64,000 nucleotides of DNA, taken from assembly GCA_030549335.1 (NCBI GenBank), contig JAUKPH010000018.1, positions 2,356,001-2,420,000 of the forward strand, given 5' to 3'. The DNA comes from Pontederia crassipes (Eukaryota > Streptophyta > Magnoliopsida > Commelinales > Pontederiaceae). Within the stretch, counting starts at the first letter, position 1. Each line of letters opens with the position of its first letter. Shown piece after piece: positions 21,832 to 49,586 of the stretch. The position numbers were made by a program, and so were the translations under genes. The notes under the pieces were generated by a model that made no database searches, was not told where the DNA came from, and saw nothing but the letters and a program-made list of their open reading frames with translations.

Positions 21832-21881
21832 TTTGTTTTCTTGGTACGTAATTTCTATCGAATCAGTAGAAGAACCTCGAA

Positions 21882-21889
21882 ATATATAT
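21882..21889 (-). promoter_or_regulatory. Putative TATA box of SPH2
   Basis: atatatat tract 50 bp upstream of the SPH2 ATG on the minus strand, at the distance seen in SPH1. Confidence 0.45.
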
Positions 21890-22630
21890 CATCTATTATA
21901 TGAAAAAGAAAAAAAAAGTTCAATAGCTGTCACATTGATTGTTAGGCAATTTATATATGGTAAGATAATCTTCCCCGAATTTGTGATCGTTATTGTCATG
22001 CATTCTCTATTTACTAAAATAATAATTATGAGCTTAATTTGGCAATCCTTGATAATAATATCTTTGTGACATTAATAGATTATATGCTTCGGATTGGTAT
22101 GTTTACTTTTTGGTTCGATGCCATCGAATTAATAGTTCTTTTATCTTTACATGTTACATCTGTGAACCTTAATTAATTTCATGAAAGGATAAAGATTCTA
22201 ACGACCGCATTAAAGATGTCTGTCATTCTTCAGTTTTATGAAATCAATTAAATAACAAGTTTCAGTGGCATAAGACAAATAAATTCACATTTTAATATAA
22301 TTCAGGTTGATATTGTACAATTCAAGTAGCAATCCCACTGTTTGTTTTCGATTATAATAAGCACATCAAATTAATTAATTTACAAAATATTGTAATATTG
22401 TACAGTTCTTTATTATCCAAAATATTTGGCAACGGTAAATGATTATAATAAACACATCAAAATATTTGGCAACGGTAACATTTTCCTTCGAGGTGATTGA
22501 CGTCTCCAGAGTTTTGTCAACTAGGATTAATAATACGAGCGTGTTCCAAGTCCCCTTAATTATGTAATTTCTAGTTTATTCTTGTATGCGTCTGACATGA
22601 GTAATGAAGTCCAGCAACTGAGTTAATTGT
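21890..22630. other. 5' flank of SPH2, no gene
   Basis: AT-rich. ttatatgcttcggattgg at about 22079 recalls ttgtatgcttcggacgat downstream of SPH3 (about 26830). The phrase aaatatttggcaacggta is repeated at about 22419 and 22458 within a ~45-bp duplication. Confidence 0.4.
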
Positions 22631-22816
<186 letters not shown>

Positions 22817-27687: not shown

Positions 27688-28024
27688 TAAGGCGTCATTT
27701 CATTCGCGAATACACAGCGGAATAGGACCTTATTCGATTGTTTTTAACCAAACAGCGCATGGAATAAGAATAAGTGCTGACATCGGATGCACGGAGTCTA
27801 ATATGTGTTTAATTCTATCGAGCGTGTATTTTGCGGATTGGACTATTCGACGAGAACATCGAATATGAGATATTCGTCAATTTTAAGAGGGGTACAGCTG
27901 TCTTATTCCACGACGATCCAAACGACACCCCAGAATAGGATAGGACGACATCGATTGACATGTCGCATGCCTGAATATTTGGGCCTATTCCGACTATTGT
28001 ATTCGCAAACCAAACGATACCCAA
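27688..28024. mobile_element. MITE with ~35-bp imperfect terminal inverted repeats
   Basis: The left end (tcatttcattcgcgaatacacagcggaatagg, seen in parts) pairs with the reverse complement of the right end (tttgcgaatacaatagtcggaatagg). The element is about 335 bp and has no coding capacity. The rccaaacgataccc ending is typical of small hAT- or Harbinger-like MITEs, but the target duplication could not be fixed. Confidence 0.6.
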
Positions 28025-29270
28025 CTTTGTAGTGGAATTGACGATGCTTTTTCATTGTTATTATTTTGGGGTCGGAACGATGGTCACAAACATAAAGGCT
28101 ATGCAGATTCACAATTCAAATTACCACACAACTTCAACAAAACATTCCATAGAATATGAATGAAACTTGCAATTAACCACACCACAAACTGCAACATATA
28201 ACCCCATATATATTAAGGTGTCTTAGCAGTTCTTATCAGTTTTTTAAAACTGCTCAAAACTACTATAGCAGTTATATACATCAGGTAAAGCACCAGGGGG
28301 TGGTTAACATCCAACGATCTTTCCATTCATACACCATGAACAATTTTTCATATCTTATTTCTACTAATATCTATGTACAATACATAAATCATGTGATCCA
28401 CGAGTAGGCTCACAACATACTATCGAAGAACTACGACCTGTTATTGATATATAGTTACTTAACCATCTGAGAGCATAGATTATGATGTGCCAAACAACTT
28501 GAGCGCCAATAATATAACCTATTAAGGATTCATGTGGTCTAGTACTCATTTTGCCCTAGAAATACTATGCATGAATAATTTAGACAATTGACATTTAACT
28601 TTTGTAATATTTGTATGAACTAGTGAACTTTTCTCTTATTGTCATTTTTCTTTCGATTCTAGATCAACTAATCAACTGTTTTCATATATGTGGCTCAAGA
28701 GGTCATTTACAATTTTGACTTTTGAGTACTTGGCTGAAGTAACAACAGTATCCTATTATGTTGAAATATAATTAAGAGCCTAAGGACAATCCCTGACCTT
28801 ATTCAGTTTTAAAAGCTCACACTTGTAATGAAGACTTGGTAAACTATTCGACACAATTTAGTGACTACTTAGTATACTTGGTGACACACTCAATTTACAG
28901 TACTAAATGGGGTGTATGAATTTACTCGCACCACAAGACTTTACTCTGGACACATATCCTTGGTTCCTAACTTGAGTCCCCCATTAGTCTCCCAAATTTT
29001 TGACATCATCAAATGAGGTCTCATATTTATCTCCCTATGTCAAGTCACACTAAGTTGAATTAAATTTATGTTCATGCCCTCCTGAACAAATCAAGACGAA
29101 TTGAGATCATACATGAATATAAATTATTTTATTTCATATCACTATACTCTAAGCATCAGAGGTGATTATTTGTATAATTTGACAATCACGTAACTGACTA
29201 ATATACACTATTTGTATATAACAACTCATATTAACTTAATAAATGAAATACTTGCACTTAACAACATGTA
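28025..29270. other. Intergenic DNA, probably Copia-derived towards the right
   Basis: No frame of use. It adjoins the Copia RNase H remnant, in whose reading direction (leftwards) an old LTR would be expected here; LTR borders were not found. Confidence 0.35.
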
Positions 29271-29274
29271 TTAA

Positions 29275-29640
29275 AATTGAGTGAGGATTGTGTATTTCTG
29301 TAGCTTTTACATGCTTAATAAATATATCTTTTGAAATTGGCTTCATAAATGGGTCGGCCACATTCTGATCTGTAGACACATTGAATAATACTCCTTTATG
29401 AATATCTTCTTTTCTACAAATTTGTATTTAGCATCGATGTGCTTTTTCTTTACAATGATACTTTTCATTTTTGACATATGCAATGTCAGTTTAGTTATCA
29501 CAGTATAGGATGTTGTTTGATGTGTTATAATAACAACAAATAAAAAATCACATCTATGATTAACATAATTATATGAAATCAAGATTTGTCCAAAAAGTGA
29601 TAGTGTATACATAATATGCGATAATTAGAAGGATCAGATG
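29275..29640 (-). pseudogene. Ty1/Copia RNase H remnant
   Basis: On the minus strand, frames give ILYCDN*TDIAYVKNEKYH, then KHIDAKYKFVEKKI, then FNVSTDQNVADPFMKPI. This order matches the end of Copia polyproteins: the YCDN..A..KN..YH strand, the HID.KYHF block and the T..Q.AD..TKPL end. At least one stop and two frame changes separate the pieces. No RT or integrase is left nearby. Confidence 0.75.
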
Positions 29641-29842
29641 CATACAACATAAAGCAATCTGAATTGTAATATTCTTTTGTACTCATCTAATAAATTTTTA
29701 TGTCGCCTTAAATTTTTTGAATTTTCTTCGGTACGTAATACCTCTCGTACATAAATCCTAACACTTTTGTTCATTTAGGTCTCAGTTTTCATTGTATAAA
29801 TATTTGTGAGCTGCAGCAACTATATATATATAGAGAGAGAGA

Positions 29843-31080
29843 GTGAGTTTAAAGGGGTGCTCCCATTTTTACAGGCCTGGGATTGTGAATCAAAGGCTTA
29901 GATTCGCACGTGTATATTAGTCGTCCAATTTTACAAGCGACGATTGAGATCGTTCATGTGGTCGAGAAGGCGGCGAGTGGTGGTGAGGCGGCGGCGGCGA
30001 GTGTCCGCGTGGTTTTTTAGGGCGGCGGCGAGTGTCCGCGTGGTTTTTTAGGGCGGCGGCGGCGAGTGGTCGCAAGGCAGCGCCGGTGAGGGGTCGCGAG
30101 GTCGAAGTGGCATGTGATCGAAGCGTTGGCTAAGAGCGAGGTCAATGCGCGTGTGGCGGCAAATGGGCCACGCCGGCGGTGGCGGCAAACAGGTTGTGCA
30201 GACAGCGGCGAACGAGTCGCACAGGCGGCGGCGAATGAGCTCACGTGGGTTCTCAGGTGGCGGCATGAGCGTCGAATCAGAGCTTCTCGAGCGAGATCAG
30301 AGCTTGGCCCGGTGGCGAGGGCTCCTTGAGCGAGATCGAAGCGCCCGCAGCGGCGAGGGCTCCTCGAGCGAGATCGAGGTGCCCGCAACTGCGAGGGCAC
30401 CTTGAGCGAGATGTCAACCCTCTGTCGGCGGCATGAGTGTCAGCAAGGGACGTGCTGGTCGAGCGGACGGCGGGTCGAGCGGCGCGTGAGGAGAGAGAAG
30501 GCAAGGAGGAGACGGTGGAGTGGAGAGAAGCTTCGATCTTGCTCGAGGAGCCCTCGCTGCCACGGGCGCTTCAATCTCGCTCGAGGAGCCCTTGCCGCTG
30601 CAGGCGCTTCGATCTCTCTCGAGGAGCCCTCATCACTGGGCCAAGCTCTGATCTCGCTCGAGAAGCTCCGATCCGACGCTCATGCTGCCACCTGAGAACC
30701 CGCGCGAGATCATTTGCCGCCGCCTGCGCAACTCGCTCGCTGCCACCAGCGCGACCCGTTTGCCGCCACTGCCTGCGTGGCCCATTCGCTGCCACACGCG
30801 CTTCGACCTCACTCTTAGCCAACGCTTCAATCACATATCGCTTTGACCTCGCGACCCCTCACCGGTGCTGCCTCGCGACCACTCGCCGTCGCTGTCCTAA
30901 AAACCCTCGCGGACACTCGCTGCCGCTGCCTCACCACCAACCGCCGTCACCACGCCGCCTCCTCGACCACATGAATGTAGTCATCTGTGAATCGAACGAC
31001 TGAGTTACGTGCATGAATTTGAGCCCTTGATTCACGATCCAAGAGCTGTAAAAATGGGAGCGGGGCCTATTAAACCCATA
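29843..31080. mobile_element. GC-rich fold-back element, arms ~550 bp
   Basis: The left arm (29843 to about 30400) is the reverse complement, with substitutions, of the right arm (about 30530-31080). Both outer ends contain gctcccatttttacag; next come ttgtgaatcaaagg/ttgtgaatcaaggg-type blocks, catgtggtcgag, and then the GC-rich interior. The interior has repeated gctcctcgagcgagatcgaag-type units on each arm. It is flanked by (ta)n on both sides. Length and long arms suggest a Mutator-type or fold-back element without a transposase. The arginine-rich frames on both strands are by-products of GC-rich repeats. Confidence 0.8.
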
Positions 31081-32440
31081 TATATATATATATATATATA
31101 TATAAATGGATCTTTAAGATCTACCAACAGATATGGTAACGCAAACTAAATTATATTATTGCTGTTAGAGTAGGGGGACTGCATTGGGAATCGATGCAGC
31201 CATGGTGGAGAACAAGAATGAGGCATTGAGAACAAGAATAGTAGTGATGGAAAAGGAAGAGCTTGAGACAGAAAGATTGACATGGTGAGGCAGAGCTTGA
31301 GAGCTCTGGCAGCAGAAAGAAGATGCGTACAACTACAAGGCTTAAAAGTCGGCATGAAAGAAACATGGTTGCTTTGCAAATGAGAAGTGGTGACAGGGAC
31401 TGAGGCCGCTGTACAAAATTGTGTAAAATCTACGTTCTTGAACCCATGTATTACTCATATATATAATATAGCAGCGGCAAATTCAATAGCAGATAGGATT
31501 TTATCTATCCAAGACGTTAATCACTCTATACGAATGCACAATGTTGGGATAGTTCAATGTAACTTCGCCATGTATTGCTACATCAAGGATTATATGCAAA
31601 AGGAAATATCAGAGTAACTCCATTTACATGTGAAAGAAACCTTCAAAGGAAGCTTTATTCTATTTTATCCAGTAACTTGCGAGGCGAGGAAGGCTGAGAC
31701 AAGCCAGTCGGCCCAGAGGACTCAACACAGAAGAATTCGGTGTAACTGCAAGGAGTCAGCAAGGATCTGAAACACAAATGACTTGGAACTCTTTAATGTC
31801 CTAAAATACAGAAGCATTAGAGCAGAACTCATACAAAAAACACTAGAGCTCAACGCATGGGTCCATCATGTCAGCATTTCTAAATAGAACAATCAAACTT
31901 ACGTATAAAAATAAAAGCATATTTTTACAATGCGATGTGGCATAAGCCAGTAAACATTCCGCATTAGATTGCTTTTGTATTATTTCACCAGCACACCCCA
32001 ATTTGAATTTCATTGACATTTCATTTTATCACTCTTTGCCGTATCTTGCACGTAAATAGCCTGCTAACTTTCTCTGTGGTTTTGTAATAAGGCACTCATA
32101 TTAATTCCAATTGGAAAAACCGATTATCCTCTAATTTCATCTGCCATGAATGAAATTTCGTTTTCAATGTTATACAACAATTACACAATCAATAGCGACA
32201 GATTTGACAGAATTGTCAAATGTTGGCATCACAAGTGTCCAAAAAACTGAAAAAATGATTGTAAACCTTATTAGATTCACAAGAAATTAATGACAATTAT
32301 CAAGATCAGGGGACAAACTAAGACATTAAAACATGGACAGCCAATATAATTCACATAGATAAGGAAACTATGAAATTGACCATCCTTCTGAGACTGTACA
32401 TCTAGGTATGAAAAATTGCAGGCCCCGAATCATCACAAAC
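31081..32440. other. Region 3' of the ALE2-like pseudogene
   Basis: No gene recognised. 31170-31420 has weak coding-like composition (Glu/Arg-rich when read on the plus strand) but is broken by stops. The last few hundred bases may be the old 3' untranslated region of the kinase gene. Confidence 0.35.
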
Positions 32441-33090
32441 TCAAACCATCATCCCATGTCCTGAAAGGTGTTCACGATGGCTAATGCTACCCCTCAGTAT
32501 ATAAGATTCTTTCTTTCTTCCTCTCGGTTCCTAAAGTTCCAGAGCTGTTGTGCCTATTTATCAGTTTCATCTGAGATATGGACTGGGACCTCTGTACCTC
32601 ATCCATTGGATCTGAACTATAATCCATTGTGCTAAAAAACTAAGGTAAATCTCTACATATCCTGCTGTTTTTGGTATCAAAATCTCCTATGTAATCACAC
32701 TCTACATCAGAGGATGACTCTTTTCTACTATGGGAATCATCACAACCTTCATCCATGTAATGATAAAGATGCTTCAGAGCTTGTACAACTTCCCGCATGA
32801 ATGGTCTTTGAGATGGCTCTGTATGAATACACAATGAAGCTATGGCTGCAACCTTCACTACATGATCCATGTTACAATGTCCACTCAAGAATGGATCTAT
32901 TAGCTGCTCAATTCCTTCCCTGTTAGACAAAAGAGGTCGTGCCCATGTTACAAGATTCTCTGGGCCCCCGGACTGAGACATGTAAACAGGCTTCCGGCCA
33001 GATAAAAGTTCCAGCAACAGAACTCCATAACTGTAGACATCGCTCTCAATGAGTAAGTGCCCAGTCATTGCATATTCTGGTGCGATATAC
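32441..33090 (-). pseudogene. ALE2-like final exon: kinase C-lobe and tail
   Basis: The acceptor ttctcag precedes G-TAT-ATC, giving YIAPEYAMTGHLLIESDVYS, LLELLSGRKPVYMSQ, LVTWARPLL and SQRPFMREVVQALKHLY. This is subdomains VIII-XI, with the APE Glu and the RPFM Arg preserved. The frame stops at TAG 32640-32642 after CRDLP. Beyond it the same frame reads FFSTMDYSSDPMDEVQ, which matches the ALE2 C-terminal block ITMDYSSGPLEDM, so the stop is premature. After a slip in the gaaagaaag run, the ending LRGSISH..SGHG follows in a second frame and stops at 32441-32443. Confidence 0.85.
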
Positions 33091-34705
33091 CTGAGAAAAT
33101 GTCCAAAGATCCCAAAAGGTTCAGTCAGAATCAACCATGGATTTTGATTATTTACTGACTTGTCCTCAAGATTTTGGAAATATTTAAAGTTAACTGAAAA
33201 GGCAATAGTCAATGTAACTGCAAACAATGTTCAAATGTATAACTTTCTGGACAATGTATGAACCAAAGGAATCTAATTGGAGATAAGAACCCATGAAAAC
33301 AAATACTTGACAACATTTCTAGCACTCCAGCAATAATCGAAAAACAATGCGTTCAATTCAATAAAAAATATGTTTACTAGCAATATGAAAGGAGCAACCT
33401 GACGTTACTGGAGTTTGGAACTTGAAATGACAACTTTAAAGTTTGAGACTTTGAGTCATCTCCATGATCTTGACATGGTAGACAAACTACATGAACTATG
33501 ATATACAGCACCATCTGGGTCCCCTCTCTCTCTCTCAGGAAAAAAAAAGAAACGCACCACCTCAGTTTCAGGGGTATTGGAACTTCCACTATGGATACCT
33601 TTTGTAGTTCTCTGTCAGGCATCACTAAGTGAGACAGCAGGAGGTGACGACATATATTGGCCGAAATCTGATTGCAGCATAATAGATATTTGAGGGAGAT
33701 AGACACTTAAAGAAATATTGTACACTGCAAATCCTTTTCTATTAGAGTGAAATTTTGGATAGTATCTTTCGTTATTTATAGAGCTAGGATCCTCCCATAG
33801 CTTTCACTTGTTTGTATATTCCTTTCAATTAATACAAGTGGATTGCTAGATCCTTGCCCACTCAAAAACCATAAAAAAAATTTCTGCATAGTGCTGAGGG
33901 AAGTAACGGATATTTTCATCCTTTTTTTACTTCAGAAGGTACACTTTACTGCAAACACTCTCTATAATGTTTAATTATTTCATCTTAGATAGTCATATGT
34001 AATATATTAGTCACATAACAGTTTCTCTACTTTGATATGAAATTCACAATACTAAGACTTTTTCATTGAAAAATACAGTCAGTGACATGAATGATGCATA
34101 AAACTATTGACAACTAAAAATTGACTGTTCCCTACGAAACATCAAAGGAAACCAATAGCTTCCCTGACGATAGAAGTTGTCATGTTTACTTTTTTGGAGG
34201 AAGGGAAGGATGACAACAGAGTTGTTATGTTAACTTGGCAACCAAAAGGGCTGCCCCTCTCCCGAACTCATAAATGTAAGATGTCCATTAGCACTGAACT
34301 AGGAAATCGCCTTAAGTAGTAAATGAATAAATAATAATTGCAAACTAAATAAAAATATAATATCTTTTTCTCCTCAAAAAGAATAATAAATAGAAAGAAA
34401 ATAGTTTTTCAGTCTATAATACATTGCACCCCTTGTGGGGAGGATTGAACTTCAGTTGCCAGTGACTTTGTCATACAAATTAAAATGTTTTCCTAAGCTG
34501 AAAAAAGTTATGAGCAAGAATAATTCGATAGTAAAAACAATGTTCTAAATATTTCATGGGCTTTACTCTGGGATCTGCCACAGCAAAAGAATGGACATCA
34601 CCATCTAGAAAAGCAGTTGAAGATATCACCTTTTTTATGAGAAAAAAATTGAAGCACAAATTCTGCTCTATGATGAAATATGTCACAAGTGATGTTTTTA
34701 GGGGA
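33091..34705. other. ALE2-like last intron, proximal part
   Basis: Intron spanning 33091-38247 (5157 bp). This part has no coding exon. Around 33760-33890 a sequence ending acaagtggattgctagatcc..aaaaaaaa resembles the 3' tails of L1 LINEs seen elsewhere in the gene (plus orientation). Confidence 0.45.
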
Positions 34706-34717
34706 ATTGTCACAAGT

Positions 34718-34898
34718 GGTAACAACTCCGCCTATGTTTTATAGCCGGTCCCAAGCCCGGATAAAGGAGGAGGGTTGTGTTAGGCCTCGACAGCCAGCGT
34801 AAAACCCTGTCGAATCTCATGAACATGAATCAACGAAGTCGTATGATCCATGTAGCCGACCCCACCTAGTGGGATAAGGCTTTGTTGTTGTTGTTGTT
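34718..34898 (+). mobile_element. Au-like SINE copy 1, full length (181 bp)
   Basis: Flanked by the 12-bp target duplication attgtcacaagt (34706-34717 and 34899-34910). The body has the Au-type sequence atagccggtcccaagcccgg, gttgtgttaggcctcgacag, tgtcgaatctcatgaacatg and the tail gtagccgaccccacctagtg..ataaggc(ttg)n. The 181-bp length is that of Au SINEs. It belongs to the subtype lacking ~12 bases before gtcgtatgatcc. Confidence 0.9.
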
Positions 34899-35749
34899 AT
34901 TGTCACAAGTAGTATCGTAACCCTTAGGGGAATCCAATCACAGAAATGAATACAAGATATAAATAATTCATTTGTGCTAATCTAACTTATTCACTAGCTT
35001 TTATGTATCCAGGCTTGATGATAAAATACCACCAAACTTTTTAAAGTACACGATATCAATTATGTCTGGTCTACAACAGATTGAGAAGATTCATCAGTTG
35101 TGTGTATAACTATAAAAAAAATTCAGAATATAAAATGTCTATGGAACATAAAGAAATAGAACATTCTGAAGCAGGCATCGCACTCTACATTATTTTTTTA
35201 AGTTCCATAAGTTTCCGAAGCATCCAAACTGCAAGCAAAATGGACAACTCGGAATAGGTTTCACATGAATTGAAATATGTTAACAGTGATTATTTATGAT
35301 AAATAACCTATAAAACTTCTTTTTGGATTGAGGTACTTCACCCGGAAACTATTGAGATGTCTTTCAGATGCCCGTATTTGAATCTCCCAAGATTTAGTTT
35401 ATTTATGTTTCTCAATTAATCATTACTCTGAAAATACGAGAATTTTGCCAGAATATCAAGATTTTTCCATGTGTTCACAGTTTACTACAAATTGATTGTC
35501 CTCATTTCTCAGTCTTTGATAATTTTGCAAGCTAATTATGTCAGCTAACAGGTTCAGACAACATCTTCAGTTTCAAAAACAAAGAAGTTTCTCCTAGCAC
35601 AAGTCATTGTACATGTATCTATTATAATTCTACAACTGAATCTGCTTGAAATCCAGAGAATGCTAGAGGTGAGAATATATCACCAGATATAATTATCAAG
35701 AAGTGCCCACTTATGTTGCTAGAAACCTACTATAAGGTAGAAGTGGTTC

Positions 35750-36135
35750 TCTTTTTCAAGTTCCATTTCTCCTGTAATGTGTGGAACATCTCTGGCATTT
35801 TCTGGATCTGCACTGTTTCTGAGAATGAATTCTGTCATCCTTCAGAAGGGGTGGGATGATATCCAACATTACATATGGATCAAACAAGTAAAGGGCTTAT
35901 GTCTTTGCTTTACCATGGACTACTTGGTTACAATGAAATGATGTGATCTTTTGTGGAGGTAGATTTATGTAGAGAAAGTTTTGACTTGTGCAGTTTTCCT
36001 GACAGGGAGTGTACTGCAAGTCAGTTGAAGTTACATGTAACTTGGCATTGGAAACTTTTTGTAAATTTTTGGATTAATATGTTTTGGATGATTAATGTTC
36101 TGGTTAATCATCCTTTCCACTCTCAAAAATAAAAA
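35750..36135 (+). mobile_element. L1-type LINE 3' remnant
   Basis: Around 35926 the frame reads PWTTWLQ*NDVIFCGG, matching SWAIWLQRNRVIFCGE of the L1 remnant at 40235. Both are the C-terminal end of plant L1 ORF2. The 3' end has a tggatgatt..ggttaatcatcc hairpin and an A-rich tail (aaaaataaaaaa, to about 36137). Stops and frame changes are many. Confidence 0.55.
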
Positions 36136-36333
36136 AGTGTCTTCCTGATAGGCATCAGGCTATCAGAATTTTGGACTTATTTGGGCCTACACCTAGCATA
36201 TTGTCTAGCAGATCAAAATCAGTCTACATGGCCAGAATATGCAGTGGAGTTAGCCTAGCACGAAGCACTGTGCTTCTTTCTTTTACTCATTTGCACAGAC
36301 TGACGAGACTGTTATCATAAACTCTTATATAGA

Positions 36334-38233
36334 CTTGGTGGTGGAACGAGGAGGTCCAAAAAAAGGTGCGTAATAAGAAGAATTGTTTCAAGGCGATACA
36401 CTTGGACAATAGTTCTGACAATTGGGAAAAGTATCGTTTGGCGAAAAGGGAGGCTAAGAAGGCAGTTAGTGATGCTCGTGCTAAAGCATATGAGGGGTTT
36501 TATAAGGAGTTAAGGACAAAGGCCGGTGAACAAAGGATTTACAAGATTGCAAGGAATAAAGAGAAGGAGTCGAGAGATTTGGATCAAGTAAGATGCATAA
36601 AAAATAAAGTTGGCAAAGTTTTAGTTACTGAAGGAGATATTAAGAACAGATGGGAAGAGTATTTCTATAAGTTATTTAATGATGGATGTGAAAGTTCCCG
36701 TTGTGATTTGGAGGACTTGATAGTTAGCGAATGTGAGCTTAATAGGTCATTTTATCGTAGAATTAGAGTCTCGAAGGTTAGCGAAGCTCTTAAGAAAATG
36801 GAGAATGGTAAAGCCGTTGGACCGGATAGTATACCGATTGAAGTTTGGAAATGTTTAGGAGAAAAATGTGTGTTATGGTTATGTAAACTGTCGAAAAAGA
36901 TGTCTAATGATTGGAGATTAAGTACATTAGTTCCTATTTACAAAAATAAAAGGGATATTCAGAATTGTGCAAATTATAGAGGGATTAAACTTATGAGTCA
37001 CACAATGAAATTATGGGAAAAAGTGATTGAGCATAGATTGAGAATGGAGACTAGTATTTCTTAGAGACAATTTGGGTTCATGCCAGGAAGATCCACTACA
37101 GAAGCGATTTATTTACTAAGGGAGATGATGGAGAAGTATCGAAGTAGGAGAAAAGATTTACATATGACTTTCATTGACTTAGAGAAGGCGTATGATCGGG
37201 TATCAAGGGATGTACTCTGGAAAGCCTTGCAAAAGAAGAGGGTGAGTGTTGCCTACATTAAGGTAATATAAGATATGTACGATGGGACATTGACTAAGAT
37301 TAGGACACCCGGAGGTGAGACAAATGAATTTCCTATAGGAATTGACCTACATCAAGGATCAGCTTTAAGCCCGTATCTATTTAACTTAGTTATCGATACT
37401 ATAACCGAGAGTATCACAGAGGAGGTACCTAAGTGCATGCTATTTGCGGATGATATAGTACTTTTGGCGGATTCAAGATAAGAGATTAATACAAAATTGG
37501 AAATATGGAGAAATGAGTTTGAGTCAAAGGGTTTTCGTTTAAGTAGGAATAAAACAGAATATATGCATAGCAATTTCACAAATAAACAACTTAGAGACGA
37601 TTTGAAAGTTAGGCTAGGGGAGGATATAATTCCTCAAGTGACAAAGTTTAAATATTTAGGATCAATTGTAAGACAAGATGGTGAGATTGATGACGATGTT
37701 AATCATAGAATTCAAGCTGATTGGTGTAAGTGGAGGAAAGCCACTGGAGTTCTTTGTGATAGAAAAGTACCCAATAAAGTTAAAGGAAAATTCTATCAGC
37801 AGTGTTATATGGTAGTGAATGTTGGGCTATAAAGGGACAACATGAACGTAAAGTGGGGGTAGCCGAAATGAGGATGTTGAGATGGATGTATGGTCATACA
37901 AGATTAGATAAGATTAGGAATGATCATATACGTGAACGAGTCGGAGTGGCTCCTATTAGTGAGAAAATGGTAGAGAATCGTTTGAGATGGTTTGGTCATG
38001 TTCAGAGAAGACCATTAGATGCGCTAGTAAGAAGAGTAGATCAAATAATTTGGAGTCCGATTAAAAGAGGGAGAGGGAGGCTAAGGCGGACACTTGGCGA
38101 ACTAATAGAGCAAGATCTATTGGTGAATAATATACCGAAAGGTTTGGTTACTAATAGAGCGGAATGGCGTCGTATGATCCATGTAGCCGACCCCACCTAG
38201 TGGGATAAGGCTTTGTTGTTGTTGTTGTTGTTG
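36334..38233 (+). mobile_element. RTE-type LINE, 5'-truncated, with mutated reverse transcriptase
   Basis: Starts inside ORF2 at TWWWNEEVQKKVRNKK, so the endonuclease is missing. The reverse transcriptase follows in one frame with three stops (37062-37064, 37269-37271, 37479-37481). Motifs: FIDLEKAYDRV (first catalytic Asp), QGSALSPYLFNLVID, and CMLFADDIVLLAD with the FADD catalytic pair. A frameshift near 37802-37830 moves into AMLYGSECWAIKGQHERKVG and RLRWFGHVQRRP, and the frame ends IHVADPT just before the (ttg)n tail. The last ~73 bp are shared with the Au-like SINEs. It lies in the ALE2-like last intron, antisense to the gene, and ends 14 bp from that intron's first base. No target duplication was found. 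Confidence 0.9.
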
Positions 38234-38247
38234 GTAGTGAACTTTAC

Positions 38248-38488
38248 CCAAAGGTTCCCATGACTCGAGTAGAAATATGATGATCCCCTTGTGATGTTTC
38301 TCTAGCAAGACCAAAATCAGAGACCTTGGGAGTGAAATCTTCCTCCAGGAGTATATTGCTAGCTTTAAAATCACGATGAATGACATGAGGATTAGAATCT
38401 TCATGCAGGTATGCCAAGCCTCTAGCTGCACCAAGTGCAATCTTCATCCGAGCATCCCAATATAGATGACTTTTATTCCGGTCAGCAC
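38248..38488 (-). pseudogene. ALE2-like catalytic-loop exon
   Basis: A 241-bp exon with acceptor tttatag and donor GG|gtaaag. It encodes [34 protein letters not shown] and [12 protein letters not shown] up to RVMGTFG. HRD and DFG are intact and no stop occurs inside. A SINE begins 16 bp upstream of the exon, and a LINE ends 14 bp beyond its donor junction, so both splice sites sit in retroelement context. The intron phases fit the neighbours (phase 1 before, phase 2 after). Confidence 0.9.
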
Positions 38489-38504
38489 CTATAAACCAAA
38501 TGCA

Positions 38505-38673
38505 ACAACAACAACAACAACAACAAAGCCTTATCCCACTAGGTGGGGTCGGCTACATGGATCATACGACGCCATTCAGCTCATTCGTTGATCCATGTTT
38601 ATGAGATTCGACAGGATTTTACGCTGGCTGTCGGGGCCTAACACAACCCTCCTCCTTTATCCGGGCTTCTATT
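38505..38673 (-). mobile_element. Au-like SINE copy 2, slightly 5'-truncated
   Basis: About 169 bp, flanked by aaccaaatgca (38494-38504 and 38674-38684). It has the (caa)n tail complement, then cttatcccactaggtggggt and the rest of the Au body, ending at tttatccgggctt. It belongs to the subtype that keeps the bases attcagctcattc. Confidence 0.9.
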
Positions 38674-39035
38674 AACCAAATGCATGTTAATAAATTTATA
38701 GAAATCAATTGGATATTATTCCCTAAATTACAACTCCATTCTAGTCATCATTTTACTTTTCGAGAAAAATGAAGATAAATTACATCATTAGATAATAGGA
38801 ATTTTTCATTCAAATAATTTTAATGATGAACAATTCACAAACAATAATAGATATCATCAGTTATCAGATTTATAATTAAAGATTTCACAATAATGGAAGT
38901 ACCTTAATTGTTCTTAAAAGAATCTGAGTACTTAAAAAGGAGGCATACTTTCTTCGAAAGAAATAATTTGATGATATAATTGTGTGTTAGTTTTGCTTAT
39001 TGTTTGTATAAACAACACACTTTGACATTCTAGCA

Positions 39036-39331
39036 ACAACAACAACAACAACAAAGCCTTATCCCACTAGGTAGGGTCGGCTACATGGATCATACGGCGT
39101 CATTCCGCTCTATTAGTAACCAAACCTTTTGGTATATTATTCACCAATAGATCTTGCTCTATTAGTTCGCCAAGTGTCCGCCTTGGCCTCCCTCTCCCTC
39201 TTTTAATCGGACTCCACATTATTTGATCTACTCTTCTTACTGGCGCATCTAATGGTCTTCTCTGAACATGACCAAACCATCTCAAACGATTCTCTACCAT
39301 TTTCTCACTAATAGGAGCCACTCCTACTCGT
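39036..39331 (-). mobile_element. RTE LINE copy 2: 3' fragment with target duplication
   Basis: A 296-bp 5'-truncated copy of the LINE at 36334-38233, in opposite orientation. It encodes VGVAPISEKMVENRLRWFGH..RGRGRPRRTLGELIEQDLL in an open frame. The identical 16-bp sequence ctttgacattctagca flanks it (39020-39035 and 39332-39347), which fixes both borders and shows insertion by target-primed reverse transcription. Confidence 0.95.
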
Positions 39332-39588
39332 CTTTGACATTCTAGCAGTTCCTCAAAAATAATTCCAGCCACATATGAATGCAGTACATATGTAACTTTT
39401 CAATGACATCATGATTCTGCAGCATGTATTATTTTCCTCCTGTTGATTTTCTTGTTATTGAACTTCCATGCACAAGAAATTACCTTCAGTATAACAAAGA
39501 CAATGAGTACTTTTCAGCTTTTGCTGAGAACAAAATAATTTATATTTTGCTAGGAACATTAGAAGGACAAAATATTATCTGAACATAC

Positions 39589-39975
39589 CATGCAGATGAG
39601 ATGCAACACTCCCATTACGAACAAGTTCACAAACCAGACATCTTTTGCTTCCTTCAATGCATATGCCAATTAGCTTGACAAGATTATGATGATGGAGTCG
39701 ACTAAGAATTTCGATTTCTGCAATGAACTCACGTCCACCATTATGATTCCTCTTTGTCAACAACTTAACAGCAACTTCACTTCCATCTTCCAACAAACCA
39801 TGATAAACACAACCAAAACCACCTTTACCTAATATTTTCTTCGGGTTGAACTGGTCAGTAGCCTTCTCAATTTCAGACAAGGAAAAAGTTTTCACAGTAG
39901 GACAAATAGCCATTCTTAAGGTGAAGGATGCAGAATGTGAGCTTGTCATACTAAAAGACAAAATGGACCGAAAGT
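39589..39975 (-). pseudogene. ALE2-like kinase N-lobe exon
   Basis: The acceptor gatacag opens the exon and CATG|gtatgt closes it. It reads FRSILSFSMTSS.., then VKTFSLSEIEKATDQFNPKK, the nucleotide loop GKGGFGCVY, VAVKLLT with the ATP-binding Lys, REFIAEIEILSRLHHHNLVK, LIGICIEG and NGSVASHLHG. The frame is open throughout. Joined to the 38488 exon it restores SHLHG-ADRNK..LYWDAR as in ALE2 orthologues. Confidence 0.9.
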
Positions 39976-40234
39976 CTGTATCATAAAGTTCATATCACAG
40001 TTAGTTCGGCTTTACTTGATGAGAAATTGGCATATGACCTAAACCGAAAAAATTACTAAACTCTTATGTTTGCAAACTTTAAAAAGACAAAGCCAAACTG
40101 TTCGATCGCATTTTCTTATAATTTCACTTTCTTGTAGGCAAGCGTTCAAAGATGAATATTATGTGAATTGTTTTTCGAGGGAAGAAAGGATGATGACACT
40201 TAAGCAGCCATCCGCATATTATTAAAATCAATCT

Positions 40235-40612
40235 GTGAATAATATTCAGAGGATAGCTGGGGGTCTTCTCCCCCCCGATTCAGAGACCTTGTGGCAGTCG
40301 TTTCGGGGTTTGGCCCGTCGGAGATCTTCGTGGAGAGCACCTTTGGCATCTTTTTTGGCCGGCTCTTGGGCTATCTGGCTCCAGCGTAACCGAGTGATTT
40401 TTTGTGGGGAGCGATTGTCACATTGAGCGGATTGTACACCACACTTCCTTTCTTCTTCGGGAGTGGGGTTTTGGTTAGGAGGGATACTTTTCCACTTTTT
40501 GTCGCTCCCTAGTTGGAGCTCACTTTTGTACATGTTTCTCTTTACATAGTTATATACATACCTGGATGACAACCAGATGGTTGGTCATCCTTTTTCTCCT
40601 CAAAAAAAAAAA
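40235..40612 (+). mobile_element. L1-type LINE 3' end with poly(A)
   Basis: The frame at 40235-40426 reads LWQSFRGLARRRSSWRAPLA and SFLAGSWAIWLQRNRVIFCG, the C-terminal end of a plant L1 ORF2. Then come a short 3' region with ctggatgacaaccagatggttggtcatcc and an A11 tail at about 40601-40611. It is 5'-truncated and lies in the ALE2-like intron, antisense to the gene. Confidence 0.75.
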
Positions 40613-41032
40613 GTCATTTTCATGACACACTTTGGTCAAGAAATAGGCATGAAAAGGTAGTGTTCGGCTTTAATATTATAGGTTATCTATCAACTAATGT
40701 ATATAACTTAAGATATTTTCAGGACCATTTTGGAGAAGACATTTTCTAGAGGTTGAACCCAGCAGATTAGGCATTGATAATAATCTGAAACAGATAAATT
40801 CAATACATAGAGAGGCTCTGAGCGACCTGCACAATTGATCTCACTTCATATGCATATATCTCAGTGAGGTCTTTACTTGGATGTGTTTCCACCAAGTAAA
40901 ATTTATTATTTTTTGTCTCTCCATCAACTGGGAAATATATACAAGAATAATCTTCTAACCATGAATGGAATAAGATAATATCTCTAATAAAATAAACTTT
41001 ACAGTTGGAAGTAAAACTGAACTTTATCATAC

Positions 41033-41272
41033 CAGATGTTTTAGCTCTTGCCGGTGTCAATGGAAGGCCAGAAGAAATGTGTGGTTCATGAAGTTTCCTC
41101 CACTTCAAGACAAAAATGAATATGCCAAAACATGACAATATAAGGGTAAACGATGAAAATGCAATGACAATAATGATTCCAAGTTTCTGAGCCTTGCCAT
41201 TGGACACATTTGCTGCCTAAAGGAATTGTTCACTTCCTGAGCCACTAGGTCCAGAACTAGATGATGGTAGTC
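41033..41272 (-). pseudogene. ALE2-like transmembrane exon with a stop
   Basis: Acceptor attgcag, donor ATCTG|gtatga. It encodes LPSSSSGPSGSGSEQFL, then TAG (41217-41219), then AANVSNGKAQKL and the membrane span LGIIIVIAFSSFTLILSCFG with FVLKWRKL behind it. Using the next AG (ctttag) as acceptor would put the rest out of frame, so the stop cannot be spliced away that way. Confidence 0.8.
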
Positions 41273-41347
41273 CTGCAATAATGCTGAGTTTGTAAAACTG
41301 ACGTACAGGTACTTGGCTCAGATTATAAAATAACACAGGCAAATCAC

Positions 41348-41720
41348 CTGGATAATGAATATTTATTACTTTGTAGTCACCAAATATGGGCATTTGTATG
41401 GGAACCTTTTTTCTGCCAAAATCTCTCATAGATAAGTAACGCTGTCATGTTGACAAACTTCTCATCAGGAGGTACCAAATACAATGTAACTCTCGTCTTC
41501 CTAGGATCTCGGAGACTAGAAACAGCAGCCATGATTTTTATCTGACTTTGTTTCAGAAAAACACCAGCAGCAACCTCTATTTTGAATTCCGCAATATGAG
41601 CAAATAATCTATGTAGGGCTACCCCTATATAAATAATGACTTTTAAAGGCAAGACACAAACACATTTTGAACCAATTGGAGCAGCAATAAGAGATTTAGA
41701 ACAAAAAACTCCATCACAAT
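41348..41720 (-). pseudogene. ALE2-like extracellular exon with a frameshift
   Basis: Acceptor tttgacag, donor CCAG|gtgatt. It encodes CDGVFCSKSLIAAPIGSKCV, LPLKVIIY, FKIEVAAGVFLKQSQIKIMA, LVPPDEKF and LIYERFWQKK, the ALE2-type ectodomain with its Cys-rich start. An extra base in the A6 run (T6 on the plus strand, 41407-41412) shifts the frame. The family sequence VPIQMPIFGDYKV..HYPG continues in another frame to the donor. Confidence 0.85.
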
Positions 41721-42725
41721 CTGTCAAATGGTAAAAGATTCAATCATCAGTCATGAGAAAATGGTTTAAGATTGTGACAAATCTGACGTGCATCATAGCC
41801 TTAATCCGTAATGACCATGGTCATAATGCATGAGAATATATAAAGATTAGTGCAAATTTCCCATACACATCCAACTTTACCCATCTTCGTAATATGGTCT
41901 TGTTATGTAAGCAAATGGTAATCAAACTTTAAAATCTTTCAACTGTGGTCATTGTTGACATGGTGTGGTCAGTTTCCCAGTTACCTCACATGTGTGGCTG
42001 CCACTCACACAACTTTCTCTCTCAGCCATATCAACACTTTAAAAAAAAGGTCTCATTTACAAAGGAGAGAAATAATATTTTGTATTAAGTGTCGATGGAA
42101 CGATGAGATAAAGTGATCTGTATGGAAGCCACATATACGAGATAATGGGGAAACTAGCCACAGCAGGTTAACACGGCCTTGTCTAAGAGGTTTTAAAAGT
42201 TGAATGGTTTTCTGATTACAAAACAAAATTTAGTGACTCTTATGGGAAGATTAGTAAAGTTGGATGACCATGTGAAGAATTTACTCATTAAAAATGAAAA
42301 ATTACAAAGTTATCTGAAAATTGAAATATTTACACCATGTGTTCCAAATATCAAGAAAGCTAAATAGCACAAAAATAAACAAGAAAGCTAAATAGAACAC
42401 AAACTAAACAACGGAAAATCTAAATCCTCAAAAGTTCGACCAAAGGCGCAAACTAAAGATCAACAACTACTAGACAAAATGGTCCACGAGCTTGGTTGCT
42501 TTGCATTACTCAGAAAGTAGGCTTTTCATTGTTCCTTCTGAGAGTCCATATTCAGACTATGAAAAAGACAAGCTTGTTTGTGTTGCCTTTATAAAGAAAT
42601 TTTCATAATGGTCACCAAACTTTGCACAAATCCATTTTGGCCCTCCAAGTCTGATTTATAACCAAACAGTGTCCAATTCTGTAATTTATTCAAGCTTGCT
42701 CCCCAATTTCCAATTTTCTATTGAT
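41721..42725. other. ALE2-like long first intron region, 3' part
   Basis: AT-rich intron without recognisable exon or element. Confidence 0.4.
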
Positions 42726-42985
42726 GTGTTTGACATCTGGCTTTAACATGTAAGCAGAAAATGAGATAACATGAAATTAAGTTATCCTTCTCATGGAGGA
42801 AAGGGTTTGCAGTCATCCACATATCTTAAAATGAAAATGGGAATATAAAAATGTCGTGTTTGACATCTGGCTTTAACATGTAAGCAGAAAATGAGATAAC
42901 ATGAAATTAAGTTATCCTTCTCATGGAGGAAAGGGTTTGCAGTCATCCACATATCTTAAAATGAAAATGGGAATATAAAAATGTG
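42726..42985. repeat. Near-perfect 130-bp tandem duplication
   Basis: Two apparently identical 130-bp units starting gtgtttgacatctggctt (42726 and 42856). Only the last base or two differ. The lack of divergence points to a recent event. Confidence 0.95.
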
Positions 42986-43099
42986 CAAGGAGGTACTACG
43001 AGACCATAGTTGTCTGAAACAAACGAAAACATGATTTTATCTATAACCCCACTTTCTAAGTAAAAGTATATCTGATGTTCATTGTTCTCTATATAGCAT

Positions 43100-43620
43100 T
43101 GTTCTCAAAAGGACAAGACAACCAGCAGAGGTCACTTTGGATGGGTGTGGTTTTCGAGCCATTTTTCTGCATAGTCTGCTCACCAGCACCTCCTACCAGA
43201 ATGCTCAATGCCAGCGGAGGTCAGAGCAGACTGCAGACACATGGTGATCTCGCCTTCCCCTCAAGGCCAAGATCTCCGCTTGGCTTTTGAGGCAGGGCAG
43301 GATTCTCACATGTGTGTATTGGGTGCAATGGGCGCCCAACACAGACGCCTGTGATTTATGAGAGACCATGGAGGACATTGCCCACCTCTTTTGCGGTTGC
43401 CCCATCACAGCGGAGGTCTGGCAACAAGTGCAGCAGCCGATCATAGATGCGTCGACACCAATAAGATTTTGAGTTCACTGCGGGCGACTGGGCGACGCAT
43501 GTAACGAGGGATCATGGATGGAGATGTGTTATTGTGTCACTGGGACATCTGGCTTCAATGCAGCTGCACAATTTTTGACGGGGAGACGTGCTACGTAGGG
43601 AACATTGTATAGTACATATT
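43100..43620 (+). mobile_element. L1-type LINE remnant, zf-RVT region
   Basis: Read on the plus strand: PLKAKISAWLLRQGRIL, ending in LTCVYW, followed by NTDACDL and ETMEDIAHLFCGCPITAEVW. This is the zinc-binding region after the reverse transcriptase of plant L1 ORF2 (zf-RVT, PF13966), with the H..C end preserved. Stops after DACDL and before the Pro-Leu-Lys block show decay. No poly(A) tail was identified; an Au-like SINE lies 155 bp further on. Confidence 0.7.
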
Positions 43621-43775
43621 TTTTTGTTGAGAGACTGAGGTGTTGAATAGTCTTCTTTTGGGATCCCCACCTGGTGGATTTTGCACTTGCCTCTTTTCTT
43701 TCTCCTTTTCATTCACACATGTGATTACTCGCTGCTTACTTCTAATATATGGTGGATTACAACCTAAGCTCTGGA

Positions 43776-43959
43776 TAAGGTTTTGTTTTATAGCTGGTCC
43801 CAAGCCCGGATAAAGGAGGACGGTTGTGTTAGGCCCCGACAGCCAGCGTAAAACCCTGTCGAATCTCATTAACATGGATCAACGAATGAGCGGAATGGCG
43901 TCGTATGATCCATGTAGCCGACCCCACCTAGTGGGATAAGGCTTTGTTGTTGTTGTACT
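43776..43959 (+). mobile_element. Au-like SINE copy 3, full length (184 bp)
   Basis: Flanked by the 14-bp duplication acctaagctctgga (43762-43775 and 43960-43973). It has a complete Au body, the subtype with atgagcggaatggc before gtcgtatgatcc, and a short (ttg)n tail. Confidence 0.92.
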
Positions 43960-43973
43960 ACCTAAGCTCTGGA

Positions 43974-45350
43974 ATCATACTCGACTTGACAAATACTAAT
44001 AAAATCTACAGATGCTTTGTAAATATAATATGTCAACATATGTGGACTGCCCTGCCATTTCTCATGCCAAATTAGACATTTTGGAGTTGGAATTTTGCAC
44101 CCACATTTATTGTTTCTTTTTCTTTTTGAGGGAAACACACTTATTGTTTTTGCTTCTTTTTACAGGGTACAATTGTAAATTTGTTTTTCTTATAGATCTA
44201 TTACAATACAAAAGACTACTTGAATTATCTAGTAATCTGTTCACCTTCAAAAAAAAAGAGTTAGTATAAAAGTTAGTTGAGCCACATAGCAAGATAACTT
44301 CCCCGCCACTCTGAAAACAAAGGGTATTGTACAAAGTTTAGTGTCCACTTTGGCCTAGCAACCAATTGGCAATAACCACCTACCAATGACTACCTATTCC
44401 TTGTTAATCACCTGTAGAAATTACCTTAAAGCAAGTAAAGGGAAAGTTGTGGAAAATCATTCTATTCTGCCGCTCAAAAAAATTATATTCTGAATCTCCC
44501 ATAGGTATCATATTATTGGCGATGTATTTGTTTAGGATAAAGTCATTTTTGTTCAACCATCTCAATCTTTCAGTCTTTTATGTTGTGAAACAATATTCAG
44601 TTCAAACATTGTTTCGCCAAGAATGGTAAGCTTCCACAACGTCAGCCCTTTGGTCATCCATTCATATCAAGGTAGAAATCCAAGAGGAAGAAAAGAAACT
44701 AAAACTTCTTAGCATGGAATTTCATTGCTTATAGTCTTCAATTTACAACAAGGGAGGGTAAGCAATTGAATGAGGAGCTTCCTCTATCATCCAAACTACA
44801 ACTGAGACCAACCCTCATCAGATGAATATTACAAAGATAAAACATGGATTGCACCATGCAGATATACATTTGGGAGAGGTACTCTATCCCATGGGACATG
44901 AAGCGGCGAAAGGTGATCAAACAATTACACATTTAATGGCAATGAGGAAAATATAATTCCTCGATACTTGTTAAAAATACATGTTCAGGACCATAAGAGC
45001 ACACAAAATAAAATATTTTTTTTGGAGGGTGAAAGGATTGCCTAGACAAATGGGTAGCCATCCATTTTGTACTAAAACTTCGCATCATAAAATATCTTAA
45101 TACAAGGTCGAATGTGAACCAACTCCACTAAGAGAATGAATAAATCAATCAAACAGTTCAAAAACAAGTAACTTTCCATATGACAAGCAACAGATTAGCA
45201 AGGATCCAAAGATTAATTTCTGAACAAAATAGTATACCTTAAGAAAGTGTGGTCGTTTCCTTTTTTTTTTTTTTGAGATGAAAATGTAATCATTATAAGT
45301 AAGTCAAAACAATAAGCAAAAAAATAAAGCATCCTTTCATGATGAAATAA
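43974..45350. other. Intron sequence, no element recognised
   Basis: Only short frames. A/T homopolymers at 44125, 44250 and 45259. Confidence 0.4.
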
Positions 45351-45355
45351 TTAAG

Positions 45356-45766
45356 TATAGGGTTATTTCCTTAGACCTCCCCTAAACTATCACGATTTTT
45401 CACATCTAACTTCAAAATATGAACTTAATTTTTCGTATCCCTAAACTATCGTGAATTTTTCACTTTAATCCATCCGTCTACTTCTGTTAAGTTTTTTGTT
45501 ATCTTTGCTTTTTCTCATTTATAAAAGGACTAAATTACCCCTCCCTCCAAAACACATCAATGGAAAATCTTAGTCTTGGAGGGAGGGGTAACTTAGTCTT
45601 TTCAAAAATGGGAAAAATCAAAGATAACAGAAAACTTAACATAAGTAGATGGAAGGATTAAAGTGTAAAATTCGCGATAATTTAGAGACACAGAAAATTA
45701 AGTCCATACTTTGGGGTTAGAAGCGAAAAATCGCGATAGTTTAGGGGAAGTCTAAGGAAATAACTC
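45356..45766. mobile_element. Fold-back MITE (~410 bp)
   Basis: The two arms are reverse complements almost to the centre near 45565. The left arm begins gggttatttccttagacc and passes cccctaaactatc, taatccatccgtctactt and acccctccctcc; the right arm has the same blocks inverted. ttaag on each side (45351-45355 and 45767-45771) may be the target duplication. No coding capacity; transcription would give a long hairpin. Confidence 0.85.
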
Positions 45767-46038
45767 TTAAGTGTAAGTTGTCTAGGATAAATAAACCACC
45801 CTTTCAAAAAGAAGTAAATGTAATCTTCTTCTTTTTTCTTTTGAAGAGGGAAAGGATATCTACTGAGGTTGTTTAGCCAACCAATTGTATTAATGAATTC
45901 CAAAATCTACAATATACAAGCAAGTAAGAAAAGCAAATAAAAAAACTCAAGAGGGTATGGAATCCATCGAAAATCTTAACATAATAATTTCTAGAGTTAG
46001 TTTCTGTTTTTTGTATAATACTTGCATTCTTACCTTGG

Positions 46039-46256
46039 TCCAGCATTAGCATTTTCTTGTGAAGAAGTTCTTTTGGAAGCCTACTTTGCAAGAAGTTTAT
46101 ATTATGATGGTTTTGTCCTGCAAACGTGCAAGATTATATATCAGAGCTCCAGCATTAGCATTTTCTTGTGAAGAAGTGTTTTTGGAAGCCTACTTTGCAA
46201 GAAGTTTATATTAAGATGGTTTTGTCCTGAACACGTGCAAGATTATATATCAGAAC
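46039..46256. repeat. 109-bp tandem duplication
   Basis: Units start tccagcattagcattttctt at 46039 and 46148. They differ at a few bases (for example ttctttt/tgttttt and ctgcaaac/ctgaacac), so the duplication is older than that at 42726. Confidence 0.92.
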
Positions 46257-49200
46257 CTCAAGTGCTACTGAGGTTTACAGATGAATAGTACATAAGATAT
46301 ACAAGTCATCTAAACTTATTATCTTAAGAGTTAAGACTCATCCGCATGAAAGTGTACTTATAACCATTTAGGGTCAAAAGTAACATGTAAGCTCCTACAA
46401 AGGTTACAAGATCAGATAATAAGAAACAGACAGAAAAAATACTATAAAAATATGATGTAAAATTTTAGTTCAATCTTGGATTTTACTTTTTAATTAATTA
46501 CCACCTGAAATTTAAATTAATGGCTGTTAAAATGCCAATCTTTTTGTCAACTTGAGAGCTCAATTTAACTCACATTGGCAACAAACAGTTCAGTAAAAAA
46601 TTAAAATATGACAAGACTGGTATATTCTTTCATGAGTATCAAAAACATCATTCTATTACTACCCAAAAAAAGAAACATCATTGTTCTCGGAGTTTCAACA
46701 TCTGTGCTCATAGAAAAACCTGCCCCGGAAATGAGTACACTTTGAATTTTGAATGCAGTGATACTACTAAAGTTCTTAGCAAAACACATAACATAGGAGA
46801 AGAAGATTTATAAGCTAATACTGCAAATGTTTCTAATGCAGATACAACAAAAAGTGTTTTCCAAGATTTCGACCAACTGTCAACATTTAGACATTTAACT
46901 CGGGGTTGATCACCATTGTAGTCAGGTGTTGCCCAGGTTTGGCTTTAATTTCTAATTCTGCTAGAGAATTGGTAATGAAACAGTTAGGAAGTTCCAAGAT
47001 AATTCATGTTGCCTCTGAACCCATGTCCAGTAGAGAAGTTTACATAAATGCCATAAAAATGACAGTTGGATGTATTGGAAATACACTTGAGAAAAACATT
47101 ATTTAAACAGAGGGATCTGCTATCTAATTATCAACATAGAGAAGGATACTTTATGCGCATGATTATAGACAACCCATCTTCTAAAAATTTAAATATCAAC
47201 CAATTAAGGCCATTTAAATTGAGCCTACATATAACAAGATCTGCAACCTCATAGTCCATTTCAAATATCAGTCAATGTGGTTTGTGAGGGAAATTGTGAC
47301 TATAGATTTCTTCCAATTAAAAATGGTTCATAGGGTTTCACTGATTTTTTTATTTGCATCGTGGATGATGGGAGCATTCTTTGAAAGATTGGGTGAAATG
47401 GGAGTAAAACGAATAAAAGACAGAAAGCATTAATGGCCATATAATGTGGGTAACATGATTCCTCAAAATTGACAAGCCACTTGATACCAATGTTTTCCTG
47501 ATGCACGAAACAAATTAGTATAACACCCTTTATTGTCAAAACACCATTTTAGAAACAAGCAGTATAAAGTGAAGGAACTTTTATGCATTAAAGACACATA
47601 TCTATTTGAGGAAATTTTCATGAAAAATCAAATGAAATAAGAATGTCAGGTCTATGATCTCCATCAGGCCTTCTAGTGTGCATAAAAGATTTGCTTAGAT
47701 GGAAGTCCCTAATATTTTTTCTAAGAAGGAAGTCACTGATAATGATAATTGATATGAGTTCTGGTTCTTTAAAGGTTAAAACACTTGCATAAAATGGTGA
47801 AAAAATTAAATATCTGGTACAGCAATCAACAAATCAAAATCAAAATACAACTTGAAATCCACATTTAGTAAGAGCATTGCATATATGAAATTCCATAATG
47901 CTCAGACATCTTTAGTAGGAAAATATTTTCATTTACCAATAGACCATGGCATTTCATAAGCATTTCCCAAATGGCATCCACTATTATTGACTCTTTTACT
48001 ATGCTCTCAAAACAAAGTGAAGGAGAAAACAATCTCCTGGTGGAGTAAACATCACATCTGAAATTCTCTGCATAAATAGTTCAAATGCAGGTAAACATCC
48101 TATCATTGGAAAATATGGAACTTTGTTCACCCCTTTTCTATTAGCTGTGACCCTCACCAATAGCACTGGAATTTTACAGCATAGTAGCTAAATGAGACCC
48201 GCCTAGCTAAATATGACCCCCCAACCGACAAGATTGGAACAACCGAACATGAGCAACCACCAGCATGGATACTTACTCATACTGGCAGATGTCACTATAT
48301 CATAAACTCACTTTGAACATTGGAATTCAGGTATTTTTTTCGGATATTTACTCCTAAGTATGTAAGATCAAATTACTTCTTAATAATTGTAGTTCGCAAC
48401 AAATATTCATTGCATAAACATTTGTCAAAGCAATGGAATGTACATTGTGTAATAACAGTGTTGCGTAATAACAGCGATGTTGAAGGATAACAAAACTAAG
48501 CACTGAGGTTGTATTCGTTTAGGGGAAATTTTTACAGGAAAATGTTTGCCCCGTTTTCCTATCTTAGGTAACCTAAAACATCTTGGTAAAAAACACAACT
48601 ATTTTGCTGTTTTTTCCCTTTATTCCTTTTCTTTTGTTCCTCCATACACACTTGTAAGTTTCTCAGTTTTTTATGATTTTTAATACAAAGTGGATGACTA
48701 CCCAAGATTAGTACCCATCTTTCAGTTCCTTAAAAAAACAATGATCATGAAAAAAGAAAAGACAAACTCGACTGAGTGTGGACACCCACAAAAACAATCC
48801 AACCCTCCCACTCGGTAATAAAAAATGACATATGATGTATAATATTTTCTACGTGTCACGTCTCACAACAAAGAGGAAGTGTGAAGTCATGCTATAGTCA
48901 GATGCCTCAAGTGAAGGTCAACGTAACTCACTTGGGCGAAAAGAAACATAATCAAGTGGCATAACCTTCATTTCAATTATCAAAAATGGTGAGCAAAAAG
49001 TCAATCAATTTTTTTTTCCTTTAGTGATAAGTTGATACACCTTATTAATGACTTGTAATATCATTTCTTATTCATCAAAAAGAATAATTAATAGAATTAT
49101 GAATAATTTTTCAAATATTCCAATAATCATGCATTGTATTTTAGAATTGTGATACAACTTTATTCTGTTATGAGGACAGTCTGTCAACTTAAGCTTATCT

Positions 49201-49403
49201 CAATTTTCTTTCTTGTGGTGTTAGCTTGACATTGACATGTTAGTGTCACACCAACAAGTAACGTGCCAACCTAATACAGTAGGAAAAAGGGACCCTTCTA
49301 AGAAAGAAATTAAGTTGAGATTGTTCAGTTACAATTTAAAGTTGACTGATGATTTAGATACCAATGATTTTTTTTCGGTCACAAAGGAAGGCTCAAGGGC
49401 CTA
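46257..49403. other. Intron sequence of the ALE2-like gene
   Basis: No exon recognised. 48540-48735 ends in acaaagtggatgactaccca..cttaaaaaaac, resembling the L1 tails at 33.8, 36.1 and 40.6 kb. Confidence 0.4.
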
Positions 49404-49409
49404 ATACAA

Positions 49410-49586
49410 CAACAACAACAACAACAACAACAAAGCCTTATCCCACTAGGTGGGGTCGGCTACATGGATCATACGACGCCGTTGATCCATGTTCATAAGA
49501 TTCGACATGATTTTATGTTGGCTGTCGGGGCCTAACACAACCCTCCTCCTTTATCCGGGCTTGGGACCGGCTATAAAATATAGGCG
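49410..49586 (-). mobile_element. Au-like SINE copy 4, near full length
   Basis: A (caa)n tail complement, then cttatcccactaggtggggt and the Au body to gggcttgggaccggctataa and the 5' end ttatatttttag-like bases. It belongs to the subtype lacking ~12 bases between gacgcc and gttgatcc, like copy 1. Possible target duplication is only atacaa (49404-49409 and 49587-49592). Confidence 0.8.

Follow-up and report, generated by a model that had tools for sequence, protein, structure and literature searches.

Recent LINE and SINE insertions at both borders of a catalytic kinase exon, with a duplicated splice acceptor, may impair its splicing

What becomes of the splicing of a gene when retrotransposons settle at both ends of one of its exons? 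The question is raised by a receptor-type kinase gene, putatively ALE2-like, on the minus strand of the window (the whole 64,000-nt stretch of contig C18 analysed here). Events in which retrotransposons hit splice sites are known, and the anatomy is unusually clear in this case. Arguing throughout from the DNA, we infer that recent LINE and SINE insertions on balance probably impair splicing of the window copy, which may be mis-spliced and thereby lose its function. Three exons of the gene were examined:

39589..39960, minus strand: upstream kinase exon with the glycine loop and the VAVK lysine, donor after 39589, its 5' limit at 39960 being arbitrary
38248..38488, minus strand: catalytic kinase exon of 241 nt with HRD and DFG, supported by translation and by the frame with its neighbours
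32640..33090, minus strand: last coding part (APEYAMTG...), running to the stop and preceded by an acceptor AG at 33092-33091

The initial annotation had reported a 241-bp exon with HRD and DFG motifs at 38488-38248, and translation, splice signals (GT donor at 38247-38246, AG acceptor at 38490-38489) and reading frame confirm it. The frame is kept across the joins of this exon with the donor at 39589 and the acceptor at 33090, and the three exons together form a whole kinase domain with frame and kinase motifs intact (Pfam PK_Tyr_Ser-Thr, E 1.2e-49), whose best relative by sequence in the PDB is BIK1 (E 3.1e-76). The length of the exon is not divisible by 3, and a message without it would be shifted in frame and reach a stop 8 codons on. 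In one paralog (L008) the corresponding exon is preceded by CTCGG, whereas the acceptor ends in CAG in the other paralogs inspected; this acceptor may be damaged.

A protein search within the same genome recovered a partner copy on contig C17, with 98% identity over the 80 residues of the catalytic exon. Alignment of 17 kb of C17 to window positions 28001-48000 gave blocks spanning 28557-46244, and the partner lacks all four of the following elements:

36330..38233, plus strand, antisense to the gene: L1, a 5'-truncated LINE with a (TTG)n tail, presumably of the RTE clade as judged from tail type, with RVT_1 on two fragments
38505..38668, minus strand, sense to the gene: S2, a SINE of 164 nt with a (TTG)n tail, absent from the C17 copy
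39034..39331, minus strand, sense to the gene: L2, a 5'-truncated LINE of 298 nt, delimited by its flanks and an empty C17 site
34729..34903, plus strand, antisense to the gene: S1, a SINE in the downstream intron, absent from C17

L1 has two RVT_1 matches (E 8.9e-9 and 1.1e-8) but no intact frame, which is interrupted by stops at 37062-37064, 37269-37271 and 37479-37481; its 5' end is placed to within a few nt, the C17 alignment breaking at 36334 and 38232. S2 is 5'-truncated relative to S1, S3 and S4. The tail of L1 ends 14 nt from the exon donor and 16 nt separate S2 from the acceptor, exactly the distances first reported. The accompanying description of the SINE as Au-like is doubtful, since the tail of S2 is (TTG)n and not a short T tail; together with a 3' end in common with its partner LINE, presumably of the RTE clade, this tail places S2 provisionally with the TS-type SINEs. 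In PMC3747384, Au SINEs end in short runs of T, listed in Table 2 as (T)2-5, and it is the tobacco TS SINE that has a (TTG)n tail in common with an RTE LINE. As in that TS and RTE-clade partnership (PMC3747384), the LINE and the SINE here have near-identical 3' ends that both finish in TTG repeats, but the stretch common to S2 and L1 measures 65-77 nt against about 100 in TS, and the likeness rests on the 3' end.

Did these elements arrive independently, and is their inverted arrangement more than coincidence? S2 bears the marks of TPRT insertion: a 16-nt target-site duplication (15/16) and a precise empty site in C17, where CTATAAACCAAATGCA occurs once and the window has it twice, one window copy with a single change. 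The same holds for L2, flanked on both sides by CTTTGACATTCTAG (39020-39033 and 39332-39345), a target present in C17 as a single copy with one difference; with its own duplication and empty site, a common origin of L1 and L2 as one inverted duplication is ruled out. At the 5' junction of L1 there is no target-site duplication, and about 53 nt of intron by the donor are present in C17 and missing from the window, consistent with L1 having arrived with a target deletion instead of a duplication, or with a separate deletion. The absence of S1 from C17 follows from the aligned blocks that flank it, which overlap by 29 nt in C17. The window copy further holds about 350 nt (40258-40609) that are absent from the partner, and the partner has two SINEs of its own in opposite orientation (5658-5838 and 9429-9588 of the joined C17 sequence), flanking a stretch with two exons instead of one.

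Within either intron both elements share orientation, L2 and S2 upstream being sense and L1 and S1 downstream antisense, so that each cross-exon pair is complementary. The initial annotation had claimed reverse-complement tails of about 73 bp, and this is borne out: 38162-38233 and 38506-38577 match at 72/72 nt, and the extended match (38157-38233 with 38506-38582) at 76/77 nt. A chance inverted repeat is ruled out for these arms because the LINE and the SINE end in a common 3' tail belonging to a single high-copy family. A 40-mer from this tail has 14,030 exact copies (7128 + 6902) in the 1.13-Gb genome; a word-based genome search with the arm gave 0 matches and is uninformative, common words being skipped. 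Six elements with this tail (four SINEs and two LINEs) lie at 34838-49483, and five of them contain the exact 40-mer; at its genome-wide frequency, 0.8 would be expected in 64 kb. When six elements were placed at random in 64 kb, an inverted pair fell in both flanking introns in 1.9% of 200,000 trials, and both elements came within 20 nt of the junctions in 0/200,000, with an analytic value of 1.6e-6 for what is an after-the-fact test. A rough hand estimate assuming 200,000 internal exons gives about 0.004 to 0.2 exons so flanked per genome, and, the family being so large, some will turn up when many genomes are scanned.

The entry of S2 exactly at the intron-exon border has doubled the 3' splice site, as the 16 nt between S2 and the exon are its target-site duplication and contain the AG:

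38489..38504, minus strand: right copy of the S2 target-site duplication, comprising the last 16 intron nt with the acceptor AG and identical to the single C17 copy
38669..38684, minus strand: left copy of the S2 target-site duplication, a 15/16 match with a duplicate acceptor AG

The alignment also allows the left AG to be SINE sequence with an 8-nt deletion, which is unlikely in view of the 15/16 match and the single occurrence of those 16 nt in C17. As read from the letters, the more direct consequence of S2 is thus at the DNA level: the acceptor is split from its putative branch-point region, with S2 in between, and duplicated. The left AG retains the ancestral context, with TTAAC placing an A at -19 and with TTTAT at -23 and TTGAT at -37, whereas the right AG has no YTNAY motif from -5 to -113. 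By our own estimate from base composition, such an absence over about 100 nt would arise by chance in around one in ten cases, and plant branch points are loose. The right acceptor has kept all 16 nt with the proper exon base next, and the T fraction over its last 40 nt is 0.60, owing to the U-rich (TTG)n tract, compared to 0.475 for the left. Use of the left AG is predicted to add 180 nt to the message, with three in-frame stops. It is conceivable that the elements are instead neutral passengers, the right acceptor employing a new branch point within the SINE and the introns being removed normally, with no measurable effect. The intact frame and the U-rich tract supplied by the S2 tail speak for such passengers, but they leave a duplicate upstream acceptor with an ancestral branch-point-like motif in place, and we consider this outcome unlikely.

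How far could the elements act through pairing? The predicted folds represent equilibrium, without proteins, and indicate possibilities only. L1 and L2 form an inverted repeat across the exon (arms 37936-38237 and 39030-39331, 302 nt, 9 differences, 97%), for which duplexfold predicts a duplex of 294 bp at -556 kcal/mol, with S2-S1 at -288, S2-L1 at -193 and L2-S1 at -180 kcal/mol; S1 is hence a candidate partner of S2 and of L2. When L2 was left out of the fold, the L1 tail paired with S2 at a probability of 0.98, covering the UUG tract. The initial annotation had suggested folding the intron-exon-intron run and proposed that the tails could pair and loop out exactly the catalytic exon. The pairing geometry and the folding agree, the exon sitting in a loop closed by an L1 pairing in all three folds; the SINE does not hold as the main partner, as L2 outcompetes it once included (pairing probability of the L1 tail 0.94 with L2 versus 0.03 with S2). 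Concealment of the acceptor by folding was rejected: the pairing of the 16 nt of the right acceptor is not unusual, 6 of 30 exon-shuffled controls being as little unpaired or less, an ordinary value that also favours the neutral-passenger outcome.

Along a growing transcript, the minimum-free-energy partner of L1 was S2 at 23 nt, L2 at 38, S2 at 58 and 78, and L2 from 98 nt on. This succession could be taken for a transposon-built co-transcriptional switch, in which S2 and L2 would compete for the emerging L1 tail: S2, when paired, would mask the right acceptor's UUG tract, L2 would displace S2 permanently after about 98 nt of L1 and free the tract, and the speed of transcription would determine whether the product of the kinase gene is normal, contains the SINE, or is skipped or circular. 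We regard such a switch as very improbable. Equally far-fetched in our judgement is that the 302-nt hairpin formed by L1 and L2 in the pre-mRNA would be processed by Dicer-like enzymes into small RNAs, with silencing of the LINE family or of the kinase gene as the result; a near-perfect duplex of 294 bp is predicted, but intronic hairpins are often gone before dicing.

If the tails pair, or L1 pairs with L2, the donor at 38248 might also be brought to the acceptor at 38488, with back-splicing into a 241-nt circle, or skipping, as the main outcome. All four cross-exon pairs are in inverted orientation and of high predicted stability (-556 to -180 kcal/mol by duplexfold) and the exon occupies the L1-closed loop in the three folds. 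The circle itself would have no open frame through three laps. Sections of PMC11276256 describe maize LINE1-like reverse-complement pairs as enriched around circRNAs, and as in maize, inverted LINE-derived copies lie on both sides of the exon, albeit here presumably of RTE type and known from DNA. The same sections report few plant circRNAs with complementary flanking introns: more than 15 nt of flanking complementarity was found for 46/6074 exonic circRNAs in rice and 1/5152 in Arabidopsis, so that flanking complementary repeats count as rare around plant circRNAs (PMC11276256). We accordingly give circle formation or skipping as the principal effect only a small chance.

We favor impaired splicing of the window copy, which could come about in two ways. 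Spliceosomes assembled on the ancestral branch point would encounter the duplicate AG before the original one, and the message would take in the SINE, gaining 180 nt and in-frame stops; alternatively, the exon would be held in the L1-L2 hairpin and skipped. Both the SINE-containing and the skipped message would be non-functional, leaving less kinase than from the C17 partner and allowing drift toward loss. The empty C17 sites, the duplicated acceptor, the branch-point-like motifs found on the left only, the strong L1-L2 duplex and the dN/dS pattern argue for impairment, while the intact frame and motifs in three exons, the intact right acceptor with its U-rich tract, the loose plant branch points and the small number of substitutions argue against it.

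The substitutions are as follows. Between the window copy and the C17 partner dN/dS is 0.56 (dN 0.0172, dS 0.0307, 352 codons), and between the window copy and the C19 paralog 0.23 (219 codons). With the C19 paralog as reference, the 14 differences in the last two exons were polarised: 8 changes fall in the window lineage (6 non-synonymous to 2 synonymous, few as they are), 4 in the C17 lineage (2 to 2), and 2 are undecided. The window pattern is near neutral and fits relaxed constraint, the counts being small and the order relative to the insertions not given by them; few as the changes are, they count against the elements being mere passengers. The genome offers a clean natural experiment, two near-identical copies of which one has elements at both splice sites and a doubled acceptor and the other is empty, and the pair permits a direct test of whether, in plants, inverted intronic retrotransposons lead to exon skipping, to circular RNA or to inclusion of a SINE.

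Mammalian Alu pairs flank exons that are circularised or skipped. The present locus resembles them in its young inverted retrotransposon copies in the introns flanking an exon, and differs in that it belongs to a plant, pairs LINE with SINE as well as LINE with LINE, and has its arms no more than 16 nt from either splice site. Young transposons and circRNAs are treated together in PMC8516420. A further parallel comes from wheat, where, in passages of PMC5787218, Au SINEs of about 180 bp inserted in introns of coding genes, one host being a putative Ser/Thr kinase, go along with splice variants that contain the SINE and have a shortened coding sequence; unlike these, S2 has a tail shared with a LINE, lies at the intron-exon border with the acceptor duplicated, and is known from DNA.

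Over the window as a whole, 0 tRNA genes and 0 Rfam matches at the gathering threshold were recorded. Two genes of the plant self-incompatibility S1 family (Pfam PF05938) lie at 5853-6287 (plus strand) and 21394-21885 (minus strand). Long repeats are present in inverted (11477-14579 and 58257-61290, 82.5% over 3.1 kb) and direct (16085-17598 and 54889-56403, 80% over 1.6 kb) orientation, as are palindromic, self-complementary stretches of 0.2-1.3 kb at 29821-31100, 61287-61946, 45359-45767 and 22630-22816. Finally, two identical 129-nt copies stand nearly head to tail at 42726-42854 and 42856-42984.
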